The notes: a model not told the origin generated them from the sequence alone. A stretch of 64,000 nt of DNA from Fibrobacter sp. UWB10 (GCF_900182935.1 NZ_FXUE01000002.1:248001-312000); one strand, 5' to 3'. Shown: positions 3,568 through 47,937, numbered from the stretch's first letter. Numbers and translations: made by a program.

Positions 3568-5616
3568 TTAATGCACGCCGTCTTCGTTGGCGGATTTCTT
3601 TTCGCTGTACCAAAGCTGGATTTTTTCGCGGGCGTCTTCATCGAAGGCGTCTTTGTCTTTTAGAATGTTTTCGGCCATTTGCAGGGTCTGCGCAATCAAC
3701 TCTTGGTCGTGAATCCAGTCAAACCAGCGGAATACCCAGCTGCCGCTCTGTTCGTTGCCTTCCAGGTTGCCGGCGCCGCGAGTCTGTAAGTCGAGTTCTG
3801 CAATTTCAAAGCCGTCGTCAGTATGGCTGAATTGCGTCAGGCGTTCTAGCGAGTTTTCGGCAGCTTCGCCATCGGGCAACATCAAGAAACACCAAGCCTG
3901 CATATCGCCGCGACCGACACGCCCGCGTAACTGGTGCAGTTGCGCAAGTCCGAAACGGTCGGGCTGGTCGATGGCCATAATGTTTGCTTCGGGCACGTTC
4001 ACGCCGACTTCGATGACGGTTGTTGCCACTAGAATATGGACTTCTCCGGCAGCGAATCGCTTGAGAATGGCTTCGCGTTCTTCTTCGTCCATTTGGCCGT
4101 GAATGCCTTCTACAACAACGCTGGAATCAAAAGCACGCAATTCATTGACTACATCTTCGACACTGCGGGCATTGCCTTCATCGTCGCTGCCGACTCGGCT
4201 TACAATCCAGTAGCAAAGATTTCCGCCCTTCGCCTCGCTGCAAATGAATTTCTTCATGTCATTTCGCTTGTCGGGGCTTACCAGACGCGTTTTCACGGGC
4301 TTTCGGCCTGCAGGCTTTTCCTTGATAGATATGACCTGTAAATCGCCGTATAAGGTCATAGCGAGGCTTCGGGGAATCGGTGTCGCGCTCATCACGAGCA
4401 TGTCGGGGTATTCGCCCTTCGAAAGCAAGGCTTCGCGCTGGTTCACGCCAAAGCGGTGTTGTTCGTCGATAATCACGAATCCGAGCTTTGCAAAAGTCAC
4501 ATCTTTCGAGAACAGCGCATGCGTTCCGATGACCGCCTGACAAAGCCCCATCTGGAGCTCGCCCAGAATCTGGCGCTTCTCGGCGGCGGGGGTCGCCCCA
4601 ACTAAAAGTTGTATGCGCATTCCTGCGGCCTCAAAGAACGGTTTCATCTGCTTAAAATGCTGTCTGGCCAAAATGTCGGTCGGCACCATCAATGCGCATT
4701 GCTCGCCAGCGCCGCACACGGCCAGCATGGCGAGCAGGGCGACCACCGTCTTGCCACAGCCCACGTCACCTTGCAATAGGGCGTGGAATTGCTTTTTGCC
4801 ATTCAGGCCATCGATAATGCGGTTGAGCGCCGCGTCCTGCCCTCCGGTCAAATTGAACGGCAAGCGCGATTTGGCAAGCATCACCTGGCCCAAATCAATC
4901 TGTCTTTCATGCCCGCGAATCTTCTGGCTTTCGCGGCGCTTCACCATGCGCAAGCAGAAGGGGAGCAGTTCAAGAACTTTCAATTCCTGCTTGGCCTTGC
5001 GAATCGAATCAAAATCGGCGGGCTTGTGCAGCACGCGCAAGTCGTTCAATACGGCGTTAAAATGCAGGTAGTCCGTCAGTTCCTTCGGGCAAATTCCTGA
5101 CAGCGTCAATGCCGGAAAATGAAAGATGACGCTGTACCAGTTGCGGAGCGCTTTCTGAGTAATGCGCGCTTTGGTCATGGCTTCGGTCATGGAATACACC
5201 GGCAGAATCTGCCCGCTGAACTGTTCGTCGTCGTCCATGGGCTGCATGTCGGGGTGCGTCATTTGGAGTCCGCGGTATTCGCCTACAACGCCCGTGGCAA
5301 GCCAGCGTGTGCCCGGTTGCAAGCGCCTGCTCTGGTAAGAGGCTCCCTTAAAGAAAGTCAGCGTAATTTCGCCAGTGCCGTCGGCAAGAGTCGCCACAAA
5401 TCGGCTGCCGCGCCCGCGAATAACGCCTCCGCGTATAATTTTCCCGATTACAACGGCGCGTTCGCCTACGTGCAAGTTCCCGATAGAACTGACCTTGGTC
5501 TGGTCCAGGTACGTGCGCGGAATATTGTACAGAAAATCCGAAAGCGAAACAATTCCCGCTGACTTCAAAGCCTCAAGGCTTTTCGGGCCCATCTTGGGGA
5601 GGTTGCTCAAATCCAT
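3568..5616 (-). CDS. recG: ATP-dependent DNA helicase RecG
   Basis: RecG reverses stalled replication forks and moves branched DNA during repair. The 682-residue length is normal. An N-terminal wedge/OB-fold domain (residues 1-240, with NLPKMGPKSLEALKSAG at the front) is followed by two helicase lobes. Walker A is GDVGCGKTVVAL near residue 285, the DEAD-box-like motif is DEQHRFG near 390, then SATPIPRS, ATTVIEVGVNVPEA and a QLRGRVGRG motif. It is the last gene of a minus-strand run (GspE-like, MCE, recG) with a 9-base gap to the gene before it. Confidence 0.95.
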   Translation of the reverse strand: MDLSNLPKMGPKSLEALKSAGIVSLSDFLYNIPRTYLDQTKVSSIGNLHVGERAVVIGKIIRGGVIRGRGSRFVATLADGTGEITLTFFKGASYQSRRLQPGTRWLATGVVGEYRGLQMTHPDMQPMDDDEQFSGQILPVYSMTEAMTKARITQKALRNWYSVIFHFPALTLSGICPKELTDYLHFNAVLNDLRVLHKPADFDSIRKAKQELKVLELLPFCLRMVKRRESQKIRGHERQIDLGQVMLAKSRLPFNLTGGQDAALNRIIDGLNGKKQFHALLQGDVGCGKTVVALLAMLAVCGAGEQCALMVPTDILARQHFKQMKPFFEAAGMRIQLLVGATPAAEKRQILGELQMGLCQAVIGTHALFSKDVTFAKLGFVIIDEQHRFGVNQREALLSKGEYPDMLVMSATPIPRSLAMTLYGDLQVISIKEKPAGRKPVKTRLVSPDKRNDMKKFICSEAKGGNLCYWIVSRVGSDDEGNARSVEDVVNELRAFDSSVVVEGIHGQMDEEEREAILKRFAAGEVHILVATTVIEVGVNVPEANIMAIDQPDRFGLAQLHQLRGRVGRGDMQAWCFLMLPDGEAAENSLERLTQFSHTDDGFEIAELDLQTRGAGNLEGNEQSGSWVFRWFDWIHDQELIAQTLQMAENILKDKDAFDEDAREKIQLWYSEKKSANEDGVH

Positions 5617-5625
5617 GGCGAATGC

Positions 5626-6672
5626 CTACGGTTGTTCGGGTTCCGCTTTTTCGGTATTAGACTTTTCGGCGCGTTCGCGAGCCTTTGCGCGTGCAGTCTT
5701 TCCAATCAGGTTGAAATTCTTCCAAGTGAAGGGCTTGACCGGGTTGCCGTTTTCGTCAAGAATCTTGATGCCCTTGGTATCGATGGCACGCACGATTTCG
5801 TTCAGCTTGGTCACCAGTTCGTTCACCTTGTCGGCCATTTCCGAAGAATACAGAATCTTGCTGTACAAGGAATCGTTTTCGATGGTGGTAATCAGCTCGT
5901 TCGTCTTGTTGGCGCCTTCCGAAATCTTCTGCATGGCGTTTTCGGCAAGAGCAATCTTTTCGTTAATGGTGCCGGTGACGGTTTCGATAGCAGAATCTGC
6001 CTGGACTGTAATATCGTGCAAATTGCGGCTGGCGACGTTCGCTTGAACGAACAAGTTGTTCAGCGCCGGTTGCAATGTCGTCAAAGTTCTTTCGGTGTTG
6101 GAAAGGGCGACTTCGATGTTCTTAACTACATATTCGACAAGGTCGCTTGCAGAACGGTGTGTTGAATCGCCATTGGTGACCAGGTGAATGATTTGCCGTA
6201 TGGTTTCCACCTGTTCGTTCACGTTTTCAATATAGCGCAAAACTTCGGCAATGCCCGGTTCAAAATGTCCGGTGTGAATGTAGTCGTCGGGGAGCACCTT
6301 GCCGGTCTTGGACGGAATGATTTCGAGCCTGCGCTGGCCCATAATCGCGTAGTTGATGTTGTTGAACTGGGTTCCTTCGCGAATAATGATTGGCTCGTTA
6401 AACTTGATTTCGACGCGTGCTCGGTCGCCAAGCCACTGCACTTTGCCGATTGTTCCGACGGTGTAACCGCGAATCACAACCTGGTCTTCGGGCTGCAATG
6501 AACCGAGTTCATCGAAATCGACCTGAATGATCTTTTGGGCTTCGTGATGGGCATCCCACATACCGTAGGCGATAATGGCAAATAGCCCAAATAACGCTAC
6601 GAGTGAAATGTAACCCAATGCACGGTCGGAAATCTTCATGGACTGAAATGTAGTAAAAATCTCATCCCACAT
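5626..6672 (-). CDS. MCE/MlaD-family lipid-transport substrate-binding protein
   Basis: A 348-residue protein with one N-terminal membrane helix (about residues 20-40) and an MCE domain at about 45-125 (VDFDELGSLQPEDQV, then VRGYTVGTIG). The rest is a long, mostly helical region of the kind that forms the tube or needle in MCE hexamers. Family members bind and pass phospholipids between the inner and outer membranes, normally working with an MlaE permease and an MlaF ATPase, neither of which is in this window. Its start overlaps the end of the upstream ATPase gene by 11 bp, so the two are probably co-translated. Substrate is unknown. Confidence 0.8.
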   Translation of the reverse strand: MWDEIFTTFQSMKISDRALGYISLVALFGLFAIIAYGMWDAHHEAQKIIQVDFDELGSLQPEDQVVIRGYTVGTIGKVQWLGDRARVEIKFNEPIIIREGTQFNNINYAIMGQRRLEIIPSKTGKVLPDDYIHTGHFEPGIAEVLRYIENVNEQVETIRQIIHLVTNGDSTHRSASDLVEYVVKNIEVALSNTERTLTTLQPALNNLFVQANVASRNLHDITVQADSAIETVTGTINEKIALAENAMQKISEGANKTNELITTIENDSLYSKILYSSEMADKVNELVTKLNEIVRAIDTKGIKILDENGNPVKPFTWKNFNLIGKTARAKARERAEKSNTEKAEPEQP

Positions 6673-7936
6673 TCCCTAATACTCTTCTGATTTCAGGTTC
6701 GTCAGTCAATCCCGCTTGAACTAGTCTCATTGCGTTTTCCCGGAGTGTTCCATCTACGTAATTGCCGTCGGGCTTTAGAATCTCGACAACCGCTTGGCGA
6801 CCCGAATAGGGGAGCGCTTGGGCCGGGCGGCAGCGGACTAGGCGCTGGGCCATAATGCCTAGGTGCGATTCTTGCAGGGCCGTGCGCGAAATGCCTAAAT
6901 CTTCGAGGCGGGTGTAACCGGCCTTGGCAGAATTCGTATGCAATGTCGAAACCACCAGGTGTCCGGTTTGAGCGGCACGGAGCGCGATTTGCGCGGTTTC
7001 CTGGTCACGAATTTCACCCACCATAATCACGTCGGGGTCTTGGCGCAATATGGCGCGGAGTGCGGAGGCAAAAGTGAAACTGCATTTTTCGTTCACTTGC
7101 ACTTGTGCCGCACCTTCAAGCGGATATTCCACTGGGTCTTCAATCGTCGTCACATTCACTTGCTTATGCAGAATTTCCTGCAACCCAGCGTGGAGAGTCG
7201 TTGTCTTTCCAGAACCTGTCGGCCCTGTCACCAAGAATAATCCTTGCGGGCTGTTGAACACCTCTTGCAAAAATTGCAGGTGCGCTTTACTCAAACCAAG
7301 TGATTCTAGCTTTGTGTGTGGTCCGCGGGCGAGGGGTGAAAACGCAATCGGGCTACTCGTTGTCGGTAAAATCCGGAGTACCGCTTTTTCGCCCCCCTGA
7401 ACGGGGAGCGTGCTCACACGGATGTTTGCTGTATGCTTAAGACCCTCGAAATGAAAAGAACCATCATGCGGAATTCTTTTGTCTGTAATATCGATTTCAG
7501 AAAGAATCTTGAGTCGGACCAATACCGGCTCGCTAATCCATAAAGGCAAGTTCTTGAAATCGTTCAACAAGCCGTCTTGCCGTAAACGCACACGTAGTGA
7601 TTGACCTGTAGGCTCCAAGTGAATATCAGTCGCTTTCAAATCAATCGACTGCTCAATCAGGCTATCGACTAAGTTCACAATCGGCTCGGACTCCCAAGAA
7701 GTACTTTGGGCACTTTCGGGCTTTAAAATGGCGTCTTCGATTCGGTCGCAATTCTTGCTTAGCAACAGGTGAATTTCGGCCTTGCTCTTGACGCATGCGT
7801 TTATGGGGGCGCCAAGCTCTGTCCGCACCTTTTGCAGCAAGAATTCATCGCTGTCGTTTGTGACCGCAATACTCAAATTGCCAAGTAGGGCGACCTCGTG
7901 CTCGCGACACCATTTTGTAGAAAGCTGTGGTTCCAT
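6662..7936 (-). CDS. GspE/PilB-type secretion or pilus ATPase, compact form
   Basis: A 424-residue ATPase of the type II secretion / type IV pilus motor family. The catalytic core is complete: Walker A GPTGSGKTTTLHAG, an Asp box (TTIEDPVEYPL), Walker B DPDVIMVGEIRD and a His box (TGHLVVSTLHTNSA). It is short because the CxxC zinc module normally found near the C-terminus is missing: the sequence goes straight from QRLVRCRPA to SGRQAVVEIL. No other type II secretion or pilus genes lie nearby, so what it powers is unknown. I chose the ATG at 7936 because a TATTTT box ends 6 bases before it. The upstream in-frame ATG at 7978 has no such support. Confidence 0.85.
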   Translation of the reverse strand: MEPQLSTKWCREHEVALLGNLSIAVTNDSDEFLLQKVRTELGAPINACVKSKAEIHLLLSKNCDRIEDAILKPESAQSTSWESEPIVNLVDSLIEQSIDLKATDIHLEPTGQSLRVRLRQDGLLNDFKNLPLWISEPVLVRLKILSEIDITDKRIPHDGSFHFEGLKHTANIRVSTLPVQGGEKAVLRILPTTSSPIAFSPLARGPHTKLESLGLSKAHLQFLQEVFNSPQGLFLVTGPTGSGKTTTLHAGLQEILHKQVNVTTIEDPVEYPLEGAAQVQVNEKCSFTFASALRAILRQDPDVIMVGEIRDQETAQIALRAAQTGHLVVSTLHTNSAKAGYTRLEDLGISRTALQESHLGIMAQRLVRCRPAQALPYSGRQAVVEILKPDGNYVDGTLRENAMRLVQAGLTDEPEIRRVLGNVG

Positions 7937-43470: not shown

Positions 43471-44760
43471 TTAGTCCTTTACGCAACGCAGACTGCGACC
43501 TCGAACGAGCAGAGTCCCTTCATCGACTCCGTATCCGTCCTTGCCAGTGGTTGCAACGATGTGGTAAGCTAATGCACGATTGTTAGCGCATTCGCTACAA
43601 TATTTGGCGGTAGATGTCCAAACGTATGCGCGCTTCCCGTTGGGGAAAAGTTCCGAGCCGTAGGTGTTACTGACTGGGAGGAGTGCAAATCCCAATTCGT
43701 TTGTCGCAATGTCTTCGTTCCCGTCAGAGTCGTATTGCCATCCGCAGGTGGATCTCAGTTTTACGATGCCTCCCCGGCAATCTGGGAAACTTGTCTTGGT
43801 TTCGTCATCGCATTCCGCGCCAACGGCCTTGCTCAAAGTCATCCATTCAGAAATCGTGGGAACATGCCAACCGCTAGGACAAATTCCCTGCTGGGGATTT
43901 TCCCATTTTCCGAAAAGGGAGTCCTTAATTAAACCAGCTTCCATCATTTCATCGGTATTGAAATTCATGACGCCCATGAAATTATAGAGCTGCCCGTACA
44001 GGGCGCAACTGTCTGCATTCGCATCGCACCAATGGTTGCCTGCCAGGTTGGGCGTTTTTTCTTCGTCGGCGTAAGCCAGGTTTTCCGCCATCCAGGTCTG
44101 TTCCCCGATTTTAACGGTGGCGTAGAACTGACCGTCGCGTTCGTCCTCTAGGCAGTGGTATTCAACGTCCGGGTTCAGGAATTTCCAATTGGGCTTCGAC
44201 TTGCCTTCGCAGCCGATAACCGTGGGAGCCTTGTCGTAAAGGTGGCAGGAAATCTGCACCGCCGAAGACGAAATTGCAATTGAAGATGAAGACTTAGGCG
44301 ATTCCGAGGAAGAACTACTCTTCACGGTTCCTGCAGGGCAGGGCTTGATTATTTCAGGATACCAGGTTCCGTCTTTACAGGTGACAAGTATCTTGCTGTC
44401 TTCCGTCAGCAGGACGAGCCCTTCTTTATCGCAGTTGTTGCCTTTATATGCCTGATACTCTTCCCAGGAGGGAATGACTTCGTTGTAGCGGACGCTCGTG
44501 ACGCATTCCTTCATCGTGGGAATGGTGCTGGAGCTGCTGAGGTCCGTTGAAGATGAACTTTTTTCATTGTTTGTCGCAGAACTTTTGCCTTGTTCTGAAC
44601 CAGCTTTGTCAGATACAGAGCTCGAAGATTCCTTTAGGTTGGATTCTTTTGCACTGCTGGAACTTTCGGAAGGTTCTTGAGTTGGCGATGTGCTGGATTC
44701 GTCATCTCCACAGGCGATAAATGCGAAGAATGTAAAACAAATGAATAATTTTTTGATCAT
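43471..44760 (-). CDS. FISUMP-domain lipoprotein, second copy
   Basis: A 429-residue lipoprotein (signal ending FFAFIAC, Cys about residue 17) with serine-rich linkers at about 22-90 and 145-165 (blocks like SSSSAKES, SSSSTDLSSSS). The FISUMP domain is well preserved: DGQFYATVKIGEQTWMAENL near residue 215, then LYGQLYNF, CPSGWHVPTISEW and RGRSLRCVKD at the end. The linker is interrupted by a small cysteine-containing module (about 85-145). It starts 36 bases after the GH5-glycosyltransferase gene with AGGAGG before the ATG, so the two are probably one operon and the lipoprotein may serve that system on the cell surface. Confidence 0.88.
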   Translation of the reverse strand: MIKKLFICFTFFAFIACGDDESSTSPTQEPSESSSSAKESNLKESSSSVSDKAGSEQGKSSATNNEKSSSSTDLSSSSTIPTMKECVTSVRYNEVIPSWEEYQAYKGNNCDKEGLVLLTEDSKILVTCKDGTWYPEIIKPCPAGTVKSSSSSESPKSSSSIAISSSAVQISCHLYDKAPTVIGCEGKSKPNWKFLNPDVEYHCLEDERDGQFYATVKIGEQTWMAENLAYADEEKTPNLAGNHWCDANADSCALYGQLYNFMGVMNFNTDEMMEAGLIKDSLFGKWENPQQGICPSGWHVPTISEWMTLSKAVGAECDDETKTSFPDCRGGIVKLRSTCGWQYDSDGNEDIATNELGFALLPVSNTYGSELFPNGKRAYVWTSTAKYCSECANNRALAYHIVATTGKDGYGVDEGTLLVRGRSLRCVKD

Positions 44761-44796: not shown

Positions 44797-47700
44797 TTAC
44801 CGGCTTGCGATGCGGTGGGCGACGTTGTTCCAAAGGTTGTCAATGTGGCCTTCGCCAAGCCGCAGGCGTTGCGGTAGCGTAGGCTTTCTATCGTAGAGCA
44901 TCTGTATATATTCGTCTTTTTGACCATGGAAGTCGAGAATTTCTATGGTGTAGACACTGGGAATGTCGGGATTGCAAGAGTTGTGGATGGAAACGACGGT
45001 TCCCTGGACATTTAAATTGTATTTGCTGTTTGAAATATGAAGTTCGATGGGTTCGCCTAAATAAAGTACGTCCAGTTCGTCCGTGTAAATGTCGACACCA
45101 TGTTCCAAGAGCTTTGTCGTTATGCCGTCAATTTGGCGGCCATCTTCTTTCTGAATGGTAATCATTTCGGCGGCGCGGACCTTGACGTTTTCGCCATCGG
45201 AATCTCGGCCCATTCCTAGGAATATGCACATCGTCAGGTAGTATGTGTTGCGAAGTAGCCAGAAGAGAACTGCCAAAATTCCGATATATTTCAAGGCTAT
45301 CAGCATGTACGACATGCGGATAATGCCCGCAACCGTTAATGCAAGCAGGACCACGAAGGGAACAAGGCTTCGCTTGTCGATGGTTTGTCGCTTGTTGGAC
45401 TTTTCTTTTTTGGTGACCTTGAATGTAGAAAGGGTGATACCCAAGGTTTCCTTGATAATCGGAATAAGCAAGAATGGCATGACCGATGTCTCGTAAATGC
45501 CGCTCCAGCGGGACGAAATTTTTCCTTGGCTTGTAATTCTTAATGCAACCATCGAAAGCAAATGCATGGGGAGCCAGAACAAGGCCAGGTCAACCAAGGT
45601 GCACTTGAAAATCGGAATGCAGAAAACGGCAAACATCAAAGGAGAAATCAGGTAAATCAAGTTCTTGATGGGCGAGAACCAATAGAGCACGGAACTGAGG
45701 TAACTGAGCTTTTGTGATAAGTCCAGCTTGCGGTTGCGCAGGAACTTGAGCTGCTTTGCGGTGGCAATCACGCCGCGACCCCAGCGGGTGCGCTGCTGCA
45801 CGTGCTCCTTGAAGGTCGAGGGGGCTAAGCCCGAGGCCAATGGTTCCGAAAGGCCGAGGCTCACAAAGCCCGCTGATTCAATCAGCATGCCTGTGGCAAA
45901 GTCTTCGGTAATGGATTTTGTATAAAATCCACCAATGGCTTCCAGTGCCTTGCGCGAAATAATCGTGTTTGATCCGCCGTAAATCACGCTGTTGGTAGAT
46001 GTCTTGGCCGCTTCGATGACGTCGTAGAAAAAGTCCTGTTCGTTAGGAACCTTGGTCTCGGCGTAAAGATTGTGCTGGAATACGTCGGGGGTATAGAAAG
46101 ATTGCGGGGTTTGTATAAATCCCAGCGGTCGGCGCTTTTCTTCGGGGAGGCTTTCGTTGATGCGTTCGGCGTCCACAAAATAGGGAATTGTCTTGAGCAG
46201 GAACTTCCTCTGCGGAATCATGTCGGCGTCAAATGTCACTACGTAAGGCGAATGGGTACGTTCCAGAGCCTTGTTCAAGTTTCCGGCCTTGGCGCCTTCG
46301 TTGTCTGGGCGGTCAAAATAATGGACTCCGAGTTCTTCGGCAAGTTTGCGCATTTCAGGCCTGCGATGGTCATCGCACAGGTAAATGTGAACCTTGTTCT
46401 TGTCGGGGTATTCCATATACTTGCAACCGATAATGGTCTTGCGTAAAAGTTCGGGCGGTTCGTTATAAGTCGAAATAAAGATGTCCACATCGGGGTAGTC
46501 TTCGTCGGCGATTTTAGGGAGCGGGTGCTCGCGAAATTTGAGCATGCTGCTGTAGTGAATCATGGATTCGCAAAAGCCGAGAATCTCGATGACTAGCAAG
46601 ATGCAGCTTCCGATAATCGCAATCCAGCCGTAGGCAAAGGGAATGGAACAGGAAACGCGCCAACAAAGGTAAATCAAGGTGCAAAAAGAACTTGAAAACA
46701 GGAACAGGTCGCTCAGAATGACTTTGCTGGGCTTGGAATTGAACTTTAATGCGCCTTTATCGGGGCTGTACTTTAGCAAGTCATCGTAGGTTTTGATTTT
46801 TTGAGTCTTGAATCTTTTTTTGAACTTGTGAAAGAGAAGGGTGATGAAAAGAATAATGAATACAGGGATGGCGAATAGGGCCCAAACCTTATAGGGCGCG
46901 GTGCGAGCCATTAACTTGAATTGGGATTTCGGTTCGTAGGCAAGCTCGATTTTGTCTATGTCGGTTCCCTGGAAAATGGCCTTCGCAAATTGGCCCGAAA
47001 GCGTAAGGTCTTTGTCAGTCAAGGAATCCGTGGCGTACGAATCGTCCTTGATCATGGAGGCTTCTTCTTCTTTATTAGACAGGCTCCAAATCGTGTAGTT
47101 TAAATGCAGGGAATCGAGCAGTCGGTACCATGTTTTTACGCTTTCAAAATCAATTTTCCCATCACCGGTTTCTTCGCAGAGGCCGCTTTCTGAAACAAAG
47201 ATGGGTGTTCCTTGCCCAACAACTTCGCGGAGCTTGGCCCGAAATTCGTCTTTGTGCGAGGTCGCGTAAAAATGGAACGTGTACATGATGTTTTCAAAAT
47301 TTATCGGATCTTTAGCCGGGAATTGAATTTCTCGGTCGTAGTTTGGTGTACCGATTAAAATCAATGCATCGGGCTTGTGCCTGCGGATGACGGGAATGAT
47401 GATATTCGCATATTCTTTAATATCTTCCCAGGTGCAGTCGCCGTTGGGTTCGTTGCAGATTTCAAAAATCACGTTCGGGACATTTGCGTATTCCTTTGCC
47501 ATCATATTGAAAAAGTTGATGGCTTCGGCGAGGTTTTCGTTCGGGTTGTTGTCCGTAAGAATGTGCCAGTCGACCATCACGTACATATCGTTGTCGATGG
47601 CATATTGGACTCCCTTTCGCAATATTTCGAGGTTCTTTTGACGGTCGCCATGCACATAGTCGTCCGAATACATGGCGAGGCGGATCAGGTTCGTGTTCCA

Positions 47701-47937
47701 TTCGGTGCTCAACTGCTTGAAAAGTCCGTTGTTCACGAACTGCGGAAACCAGGTGAGACCATGGGTGCTTGCACCCCTCAGTACGACCTGCGTTCCGGCT
47801 TCGTCGTAAAGGCCGGTTCCTTGTACATGGAGTTTTCCGTTTATGGAGGGGCGTGCAACCATGGCGCTGGCTGAAATAGTTATAGCCAAAATCAATAACG
47901 CGATGGTTTGTAAAATGTGAAAATCGGACTGTTTCAT
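44797..47937 (-). CDS. GH5 endoglucanase-type domain fused to a BcsA-like cellulose synthase with PilZ-like tail
   Basis: A 1046-residue fusion. After a signal or anchor helix (about 9-26), residues about 35-330 form a GH5 hydrolase with acid/base E163 (ICNEP), nucleophile E250 (IFVSESG), H222 and R86. A membrane helix (about 350-370) leads to a BcsA-type glycosyltransferase: two further helices (about 405-455), DVD (484-486), DD at 522-523, DAD at 570-572, TED at 677-679 and QRTRW at 715-719. The channel helices (about 745-900) include a gating-loop motif FKVTKK at 839-844. Residues about 915-1005 resemble PilZ, but the c-di-GMP motifs RxxxR and (D/N)xSxxG are not clear. The hydrolase would face the periplasm beside the glucan exit. 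Product (cellulose or another beta-glucan) unknown. Confidence 0.88.
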   Translation of the reverse strand: MKQSDFHILQTIALLILAITISASAMVARPSINGKLHVQGTGLYDEAGTQVVLRGASTHGLTWFPQFVNNGLFKQLSTEWNTNLIRLAMYSDDYVHGDRQKNLEILRKGVQYAIDNDMYVMVDWHILTDNNPNENLAEAINFFNMMAKEYANVPNVIFEICNEPNGDCTWEDIKEYANIIIPVIRRHKPDALILIGTPNYDREIQFPAKDPINFENIMYTFHFYATSHKDEFRAKLREVVGQGTPIFVSESGLCEETGDGKIDFESVKTWYRLLDSLHLNYTIWSLSNKEEEASMIKDDSYATDSLTDKDLTLSGQFAKAIFQGTDIDKIELAYEPKSQFKLMARTAPYKVWALFAIPVFIILFITLLFHKFKKRFKTQKIKTYDDLLKYSPDKGALKFNSKPSKVILSDLFLFSSSFCTLIYLCWRVSCSIPFAYGWIAIIGSCILLVIEILGFCESMIHYSSMLKFREHPLPKIADEDYPDVDIFISTYNEPPELLRKTIIGCKYMEYPDKNKVHIYLCDDHRRPEMRKLAEELGVHYFDRPDNEGAKAGNLNKALERTHSPYVVTFDADMIPQRKFLLKTIPYFVDAERINESLPEEKRRPLGFIQTPQSFYTPDVFQHNLYAETKVPNEQDFFYDVIEAAKTSTNSVIYGGSNTIISRKALEAIGGFYTKSITEDFATGMLIESAGFVSLGLSEPLASGLAPSTFKEHVQQRTRWGRGVIATAKQLKFLRNRKLDLSQKLSYLSSVLYWFSPIKNLIYLISPLMFAVFCIPIFKCTLVDLALFWLPMHLLSMVALRITSQGKISSRWSGIYETSVMPFLLIPIIKETLGITLSTFKVTKKEKSNKRQTIDKRSLVPFVVLLALTVAGIIRMSYMLIALKYIGILAVLFWLLRNTYYLTMCIFLGMGRDSDGENVKVRAAEMITIQKEDGRQIDGITTKLLEHGVDIYTDELDVLYLGEPIELHISNSKYNLNVQGTVVSIHNSCNPDIPSVYTIEILDFHGQKDEYIQMLYDRKPTLPQRLRLGEGHIDNLWNNVAHRIASR

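Follow-up and report, generated by a model that had tools for sequence, protein, structure and literature searches.

Why should a bacterium of a cellulose-degrading genus carry a gene that joins a cellulase to a cellulose synthase? Such a gene lies on the minus strand (44797..47937) of a 64,000-nucleotide stretch of DNA from Fibrobacter sp. UWB10, which we call the window. From its ATG start it encodes 1046 residues, in the order GH5, transmembrane (TM) segment, GT2 and PilZ-like domain. An earlier note, made from the sequence alone, had proposed this union of a GH5 hydrolase with a BcsA-type GT2 and had called it notable for Fibrobacter.

Architecture and integrity of the fusion protein

The presence of both enzymes in one chain is borne out by profile and structure searches. 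Pfam Cellulase/GH5 matches residues 45-289 (E 2e-57) and the top PDB matches over residues 32-320 are Cel5A-type endoglucanases, so that the placement of the N-terminal part in GH5 holds. Several Pfam GT2 models match residues 482-772, and BcsA is the top PDB match over residues 418-947. TIGR03030 (CelA) covers residues 412-951 (E 2e-111) with 373 bits, far under its equivalog cut-off of 699: we therefore term the protein BcsA-like and withhold the BcsA name.

The chain opens with a hydrophobic, signal-peptide-like segment, residues 1-27 (47857..47937, minus strand as for all features of the protein), ending in SASA. Recognised from sequence, hydropathy and orthologue N-termini, the segment keeps its character among orthologues; its cleavage is predicted, and the structural model shows a low-confidence helix at residues 2-19. 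The Cel5A-like catalytic domain with E163 and E250 follows at residues ~32-323 (46969..47844), as placed by Pfam, PDB and Foldseek. Hydropathy and the model give residues ~324-466 (46540..46968) to a linker of ~25 residues and three TM helices (348-376, 403-430 and 438-466), counterparts of BcsA TM2-4, with GH5 on the outer face. The GT2 domain and the next four TM helices span residues ~482-906 (45220..46494; Pfam, motifs and model), the gating-loop motif FKVTKK falling at 839-844. Residues 907-1046 (44800..45219) make up a PilZ-like β-barrel and C-terminal helices, assigned by motif comparison, the model and a Pfam PilZ match of 19 bits, below the 22.5 cut-off.

AlphaFold2, with a 97-row alignment, yielded a model of mean pLDDT 90.7 and pTM 0.79, in which the β-strands of the PilZ-like barrel are still present. 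By Foldseek, the GH5 part matches Cel5A (1a3h) with a TM-score of 0.95 and an rmsd of 1.5, and the remainder matches BcsA (4p00) with a TM-score of 0.76 by target length. Of the K/R that flank the first TM helix after GH5, 4 lie on the GH5 side and 7 on the opposite side, which places GH5 outside by the positive-inside rule. Together with the signal-peptide-like N-terminus and the confident model, this distribution agrees with the outward-facing GH5 supposed by the note. Seven TM helices follow GH5 in all. This is the number found in RiGT2, which is without the extra BcsA TM helix that packs against BcsB (PMC10374906). The GH5 domain would sit about where BcsA and BcsB meet, and its cleft may be oriented toward the exit of the glucan channel.

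Alignment with PDB entries identifies E163 (NEP) and E250 (SESG) as the two catalytic glutamates of GH5, and the GT2 motifs claimed earlier are all there: DD, DAD, TED, QQRTRW and FKVTKK. The first half is a TIM barrel with the canonical active-site residues; the second unites D, D, DxD, TED, QxxRW and FxVTxK with a TM channel, as a BcsA-type GT2 does. All eight GH5 residues checked (R86, H125, N162, E163, H222, Y224, E250 and W284) are invariant in 76/76 fused homologues. The same holds for GT2 residues D485, D523, D570, D572, T677-E678-D679, Q715, R718 and W719, and for F839, T842 and K844 of the gating loop. The putative subfamily, GH5_2, is that of the nearest PDB entries. All 76 fused proteins have Cys or Ser at residue 251 (window 47185-47187), directly after the GH5 nucleophile, a position taken by Trp in the aligned GH5 cellulases; tethering to a synthase and this substitution set the domain apart from Cel5A-type endoglucanases, with which it shares the fold and every active-site residue checked. 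Where dS is unsaturated, each of the three parts (GH5, GT2 and PilZ-like) has a dN/dS of 0.04-0.16. Purifying selection thus acts along the entire chain, and both enzymes look active.

The join is neither a sequencing error nor the product of a chimeric contig, since full-length orthologues, 70-80% identical and each in one ORF without stops, occur in about 20 further Fibrobacter genomes. These orthologues exclude the accidental joining of two genes that the note had named as fatal to its proposal. Patchy presence (23/80 genomes of the genus, two of them with split or frameshifted copies), a truncated second copy in one genome (G060) and frameshifts in a same-species MAG (G136) and in Treponema JC4 might suggest that the fusion in Fibrobacter is a relic or a non-functional join. 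We consider this very improbable: low dN/dS in every domain, invariant active sites and full-length ORFs in most carriers stand against it, and selection has largely refuted it already.

The damaged copies differ in kind. The second copy in G060 (L050, G060:C2:90000-104000, at 4724-7623) occurs in addition to a full copy in that genome; its two pieces correspond to residues 590-1044 of the query and share 77-85% identity with the window protein. The copy in G136 (L063, contig 63), a MAG named Fibrobacter succinogenes, is 98% identical, which agrees with the note's attribution of the host to Fibrobacter, and is frameshifted around residue 852-868, by assembly error or true mutation. In Treponema sp. 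JC4 (L060), the frameshift falls inside the GH5 part.

On the same strand, 36 bp downstream of the fusion gene, lies a gene for a FISUMP-domain protein with a lipoprotein-like N-terminus (43471..44760). This neighbour, 84% identical, adjoins the fusion gene in one other genome too (G123, L049), and it is a possible operon partner.

Distribution and origin

A pattern scan over 84,980 species genomes used the GT2 half only, and the best 80 loci were taken. A GH5 domain lies N-terminal in the same ORF at 79 of them; the search for this domain order across genomes, proposed earlier, thus found it nearly throughout. At the remaining locus, L127, a single in-frame stop falls exactly at the junction of the GH5 and GT2 halves. 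The loci belong to Fibrobacter, two Treponema isolates, Lachnospiraceae including Butyrivibrio isolates, Erysipelotrichaceae, Oscillospiraceae, Christensenella and Coriobacteriia. The architecture singled out for Fibrobacter is therefore real, but that frame was too narrow, as it is common to gut bacteria of four phyla. All record titles that state a body site name the gut (rumen, omasum, abomasum, jejunum or faeces), and the hosts in these titles are sheep, goat, water buffalo, roe deer and horse.

Within each of the wider groups the gene is rare and scattered: it was found in 2/299 sampled Lachnospiraceae, 2/145 members of the Treponema family, 2/298 of the class of a Coriobacteriia carrier and 1/395 of the class of an Erysipelotrichaceae carrier. 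The GT2 tree gathers the fused proteins in a single clade (SH-aLRT 98), whose sister group is un-fused GT2 from Ccs-type operons of clostridia, and nests Fibrobacter and Treponema among Bacillota. The fused GH5 domains likewise form one clade in their own tree (94). Given the patchy distribution, the simplest reading of these trees is one fusion event followed by horizontal transfer among gut bacteria. The viral contigs searched hold no relative, and plasmid records gave partial GT2 matches only, none covering 80% of the query. As a separate observation, a GT2 relative with 38% identity is encoded at L193 (G739:C33:82228-83982), in the class of a Coriobacteriia carrier, within an open frame of 1151 aa that contains one TAG.

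The un-fused relatives, 38-46% identical, lie mostly in operons that also contain MBOAT and DHHW-like genes and, in many cases, a separate GH5 gene; this is the arrangement published for clostridial ccsZABHI (PMC7710045). There, the endo-β-1,4-glucanase CcsZ (GH5) and the GT2 CcsA are separate proteins (Scott et al. 2020, PMC7710045). Like the fusion, the Ccs system combines a GH5 endoglucanase and a BcsA-type GT2, and it has no bcsB, bcsC or GH8 bcsZ. The note's remark that the trimming enzyme is usually the GH8 BcsZ thus stands for proteobacteria, but not for these clostridial operons (PMC7710045). The fusion in turn lacks the Ccs arrangement of a separate CcsZ GH5 with MBOAT/DHHW acetylation genes near the GT2: MBOAT genes occur near 14 un-fused loci versus 1 fused locus.

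A simple joining of ccsZ to ccsA is weakened as an origin. CcsZ of C. difficile belongs to GH5_25 (PMC9693552), unlike the Cel5A/GH5_2-like domain found here, so the donor of the GH5 half need not have been ccsZ. Separate GH5_2-like genes occur in three un-fused operons (L148, L150 and L154), and they form no exclusive grouping with the fused domains. Judging from the trees and nearest matches, the parents were most likely a GT2 akin to clostridial Ccs-type synthases and a GH5_2-like enzyme.

Loss of the c-di-GMP site and possible partner switching

The Bcs system of Rhodobacter and E. coli shares with the fusion the GT2 fold, the TM channel, the TED/QxxRW/FxVTxK motifs and a domain at the PilZ position. 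The fusion differs from it in being without BcsB and without c-di-GMP motifs, and in having its hydrolase in cis, whereas BcsZ (GH8) of Bcs is separate and periplasmic. BcsB (PF03170) is absent from the 80 Fibrobacter genomes searched. The 31 fusion genomes searched from other phyla hold no intact BcsB: their one match, 96 codons long, is interrupted by 4 stop codons, so these genomes encode no BcsB partner of the Bcs kind.

The c-di-GMP motifs RxxxR and D/NxSxxG are kept in 18/18 un-fused relatives and, at the motif positions, in 0/76 fused proteins, two regular-expression matches among the 76 being off-site. The un-fused Ccs-type relatives tested thus have an intact PilZ site, unlike the fused proteins, in which GRDSDxE-like and TxLTEH-like sequence replaces it. 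The window protein reads GRDSDGE and a TxLTEHG/S-type sequence at these positions, and its C-terminal domain does not qualify as a PilZ c-di-GMP receptor. With 32 GGDEF matches in the window's genome (G000), the organism has c-di-GMP signalling; the fusion enzyme appears to have left its control. Against these 32 matches, one PilZ-domain gene scores over the cut-off in the same genome (L035), so most c-di-GMP receptors there would be of other kinds or unrecognised.

Another type of control is suggested by neighbouring genes. Next to the fusion at three Butyrivibrio loci lies a STAS gene, and beyond it come genes for STAS-APH, for a HATPase resembling RsbW and for a SpoIIE phosphatase. In Fibrobacter G121, a STAS gene starts 8 bp downstream on the opposite strand, with a PP2C/RsbW-like gene next to it. 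STAS genes lie within the fetched flanks of 11/81 fused loci versus 1/19 un-fused Lachnospiraceae loci. A PP2C/RsbW-like protein is encoded in 23/23 fusion-bearing genomes of the genus versus 34/57 others (Fisher p 8e-5, uncorrected for kinship). Partner switching may control the fusion synthase in several hosts; the link is suggestive only, because the cassette adjoins the fusion in a minority of loci and lies on another contig in the window's genome. Constant adjacency of the cassette in Fibrobacter was rejected, G121 being the only such case among the loci examined, and so was a neighbouring SulP-STAS gene as part of the system, since none of the 14 other wide-flank Fibrobacter loci shows it near the fusion. 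At one locus (L156:3015-5666), a single chain comprising a MatE transporter, an RsbW-like HATPase and HD-CE adjoins the fusion gene, near a STAS-APH gene.

A proposed self-trimming synthase and its alternatives

We favour, as the most likely reading and one we would back with some confidence, that the fusion is a self-contained synthase, independent of c-di-GMP, and that outside the membrane it cuts the β-glucan it has made. The GT2 would polymerise UDP-glucose on the cytoplasmic side and thread the chain outward through its own seven-TM channel. GH5, which the short linker ties to the first TM helix at its outer end, roughly where BcsA has its extra TM helix and its BcsB partner, would cut the emerging chain and so release β-glucan of limited length. 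The enzyme would work without BcsB and without c-di-GMP, the PilZ-like domain being presumably retained as a structural or regulatory module; in several hosts, control would probably have passed to STAS / RsbW-like / SpoIIE partner switching. Bacillota would release the product as a short exopolysaccharide. In the double-membraned Fibrobacter and Treponema, cutting would yield cello-oligosaccharides that are periplasmic or leak outward; no outer-membrane export gene was recognised adjoining the fusion in these two genera.

The product could instead be mixed-linkage glucan or another β-glycan. RiGT2 (Cgs) of Romboutsia ilealis is a seven-TM GT2 that makes β-glucan without BcsB, and its PilZ domain is required yet unresponsive to c-di-GMP (PMC10374906). 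The fusion resembles it in these TM helices and in being BcsB-free, but RiGT2 has 637 aa, no fused hydrolase, conserved PilZ motifs and a mixed-linkage product (PMC10374906). A synthase of this kind, making (1,3;1,4)-β-glucan that GH5 trims in place of cellulose, is an unlikely but serious candidate. It gains from the five-fold higher activity of clostridial CcsZ on mixed-linkage glucan than on CMC (PMC7710045), while the Ccs-type operons of the nearest un-fused relatives, with their MBOAT and DHHW-like genes, are assigned to cellulose. As no established sequence rule separates cellulose synthases from mixed-linkage ones (PMC10374906), the two products are indistinguishable from sequence.

GH5 could also act in trans on dietary glucan. 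Another reading takes GH5 chiefly for a degradative cellulase tethered at the surface, or for a transglycosylase attaching glucan to an acceptor, with the GT2 serving another purpose such as capsule anchoring or adhesion to plant fibre. Many hosts do live on plant fibre, and the clade-wide Cys or Ser after the nucleophile departs from the aligned cellulases; yet all canonical hydrolytic residues are retained, and the fusion has a single origin and has been inherited as one chain across four phyla. From this co-inheritance we argue that GT2 and GH5 work on one and the same chain, and we hold the degradative or transglycosylase role to be improbable.

Processive GT2 domains are joined to hydrolases or transglycosylases elsewhere: GH17-GT2 fusions (NdvB-like) and OpgH-type synthases combine them in one chain or pathway and make periplasmic glucans of limited length, but their GH family, linkage and GT2 subfamily differ from those of the fusion. 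In the open-licence literature searched, no GH5-GT2 fusion is described; the parts are known, and the GH5-GT2 architecture with its lost c-di-GMP site appears to be new. Tentatively, and with rather more doubt than belief, we see in the self-trimming synthase a one-protein system not described before, spread horizontally among gut bacteria and STAS-switched, that makes, exports and cuts β-glucan into defined pieces without BcsB or c-di-GMP.

If this is true, Fibrobacter, a degrader of cellulose, would also be a maker and shedder of cello-oligosaccharides. Efflux of cellodextrins from Fibrobacter has been reported and costed, with intracellular synthesis assumed, the strain studied being S85 (review PMC4432691). 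S85, the type strain, is not among the carriers retrieved here. Short products of the fusion would fit these reports, and the fusion would be an enzyme candidate for this long-known efflux. What a cellulase does in the company of a cellulose synthase is still debated ground that the one-chain version, maintained in four phyla with both active sites intact, makes directly testable by point mutation within a single gene, and the clade-wide absence of the c-di-GMP site offers a natural experiment on the role of the PilZ domain. Were the product a soluble cello-oligosaccharide or a mixed-linkage glucan, bacteria would themselves supply fibre-like sugar in the rumen, which would bear on cross-feeding.
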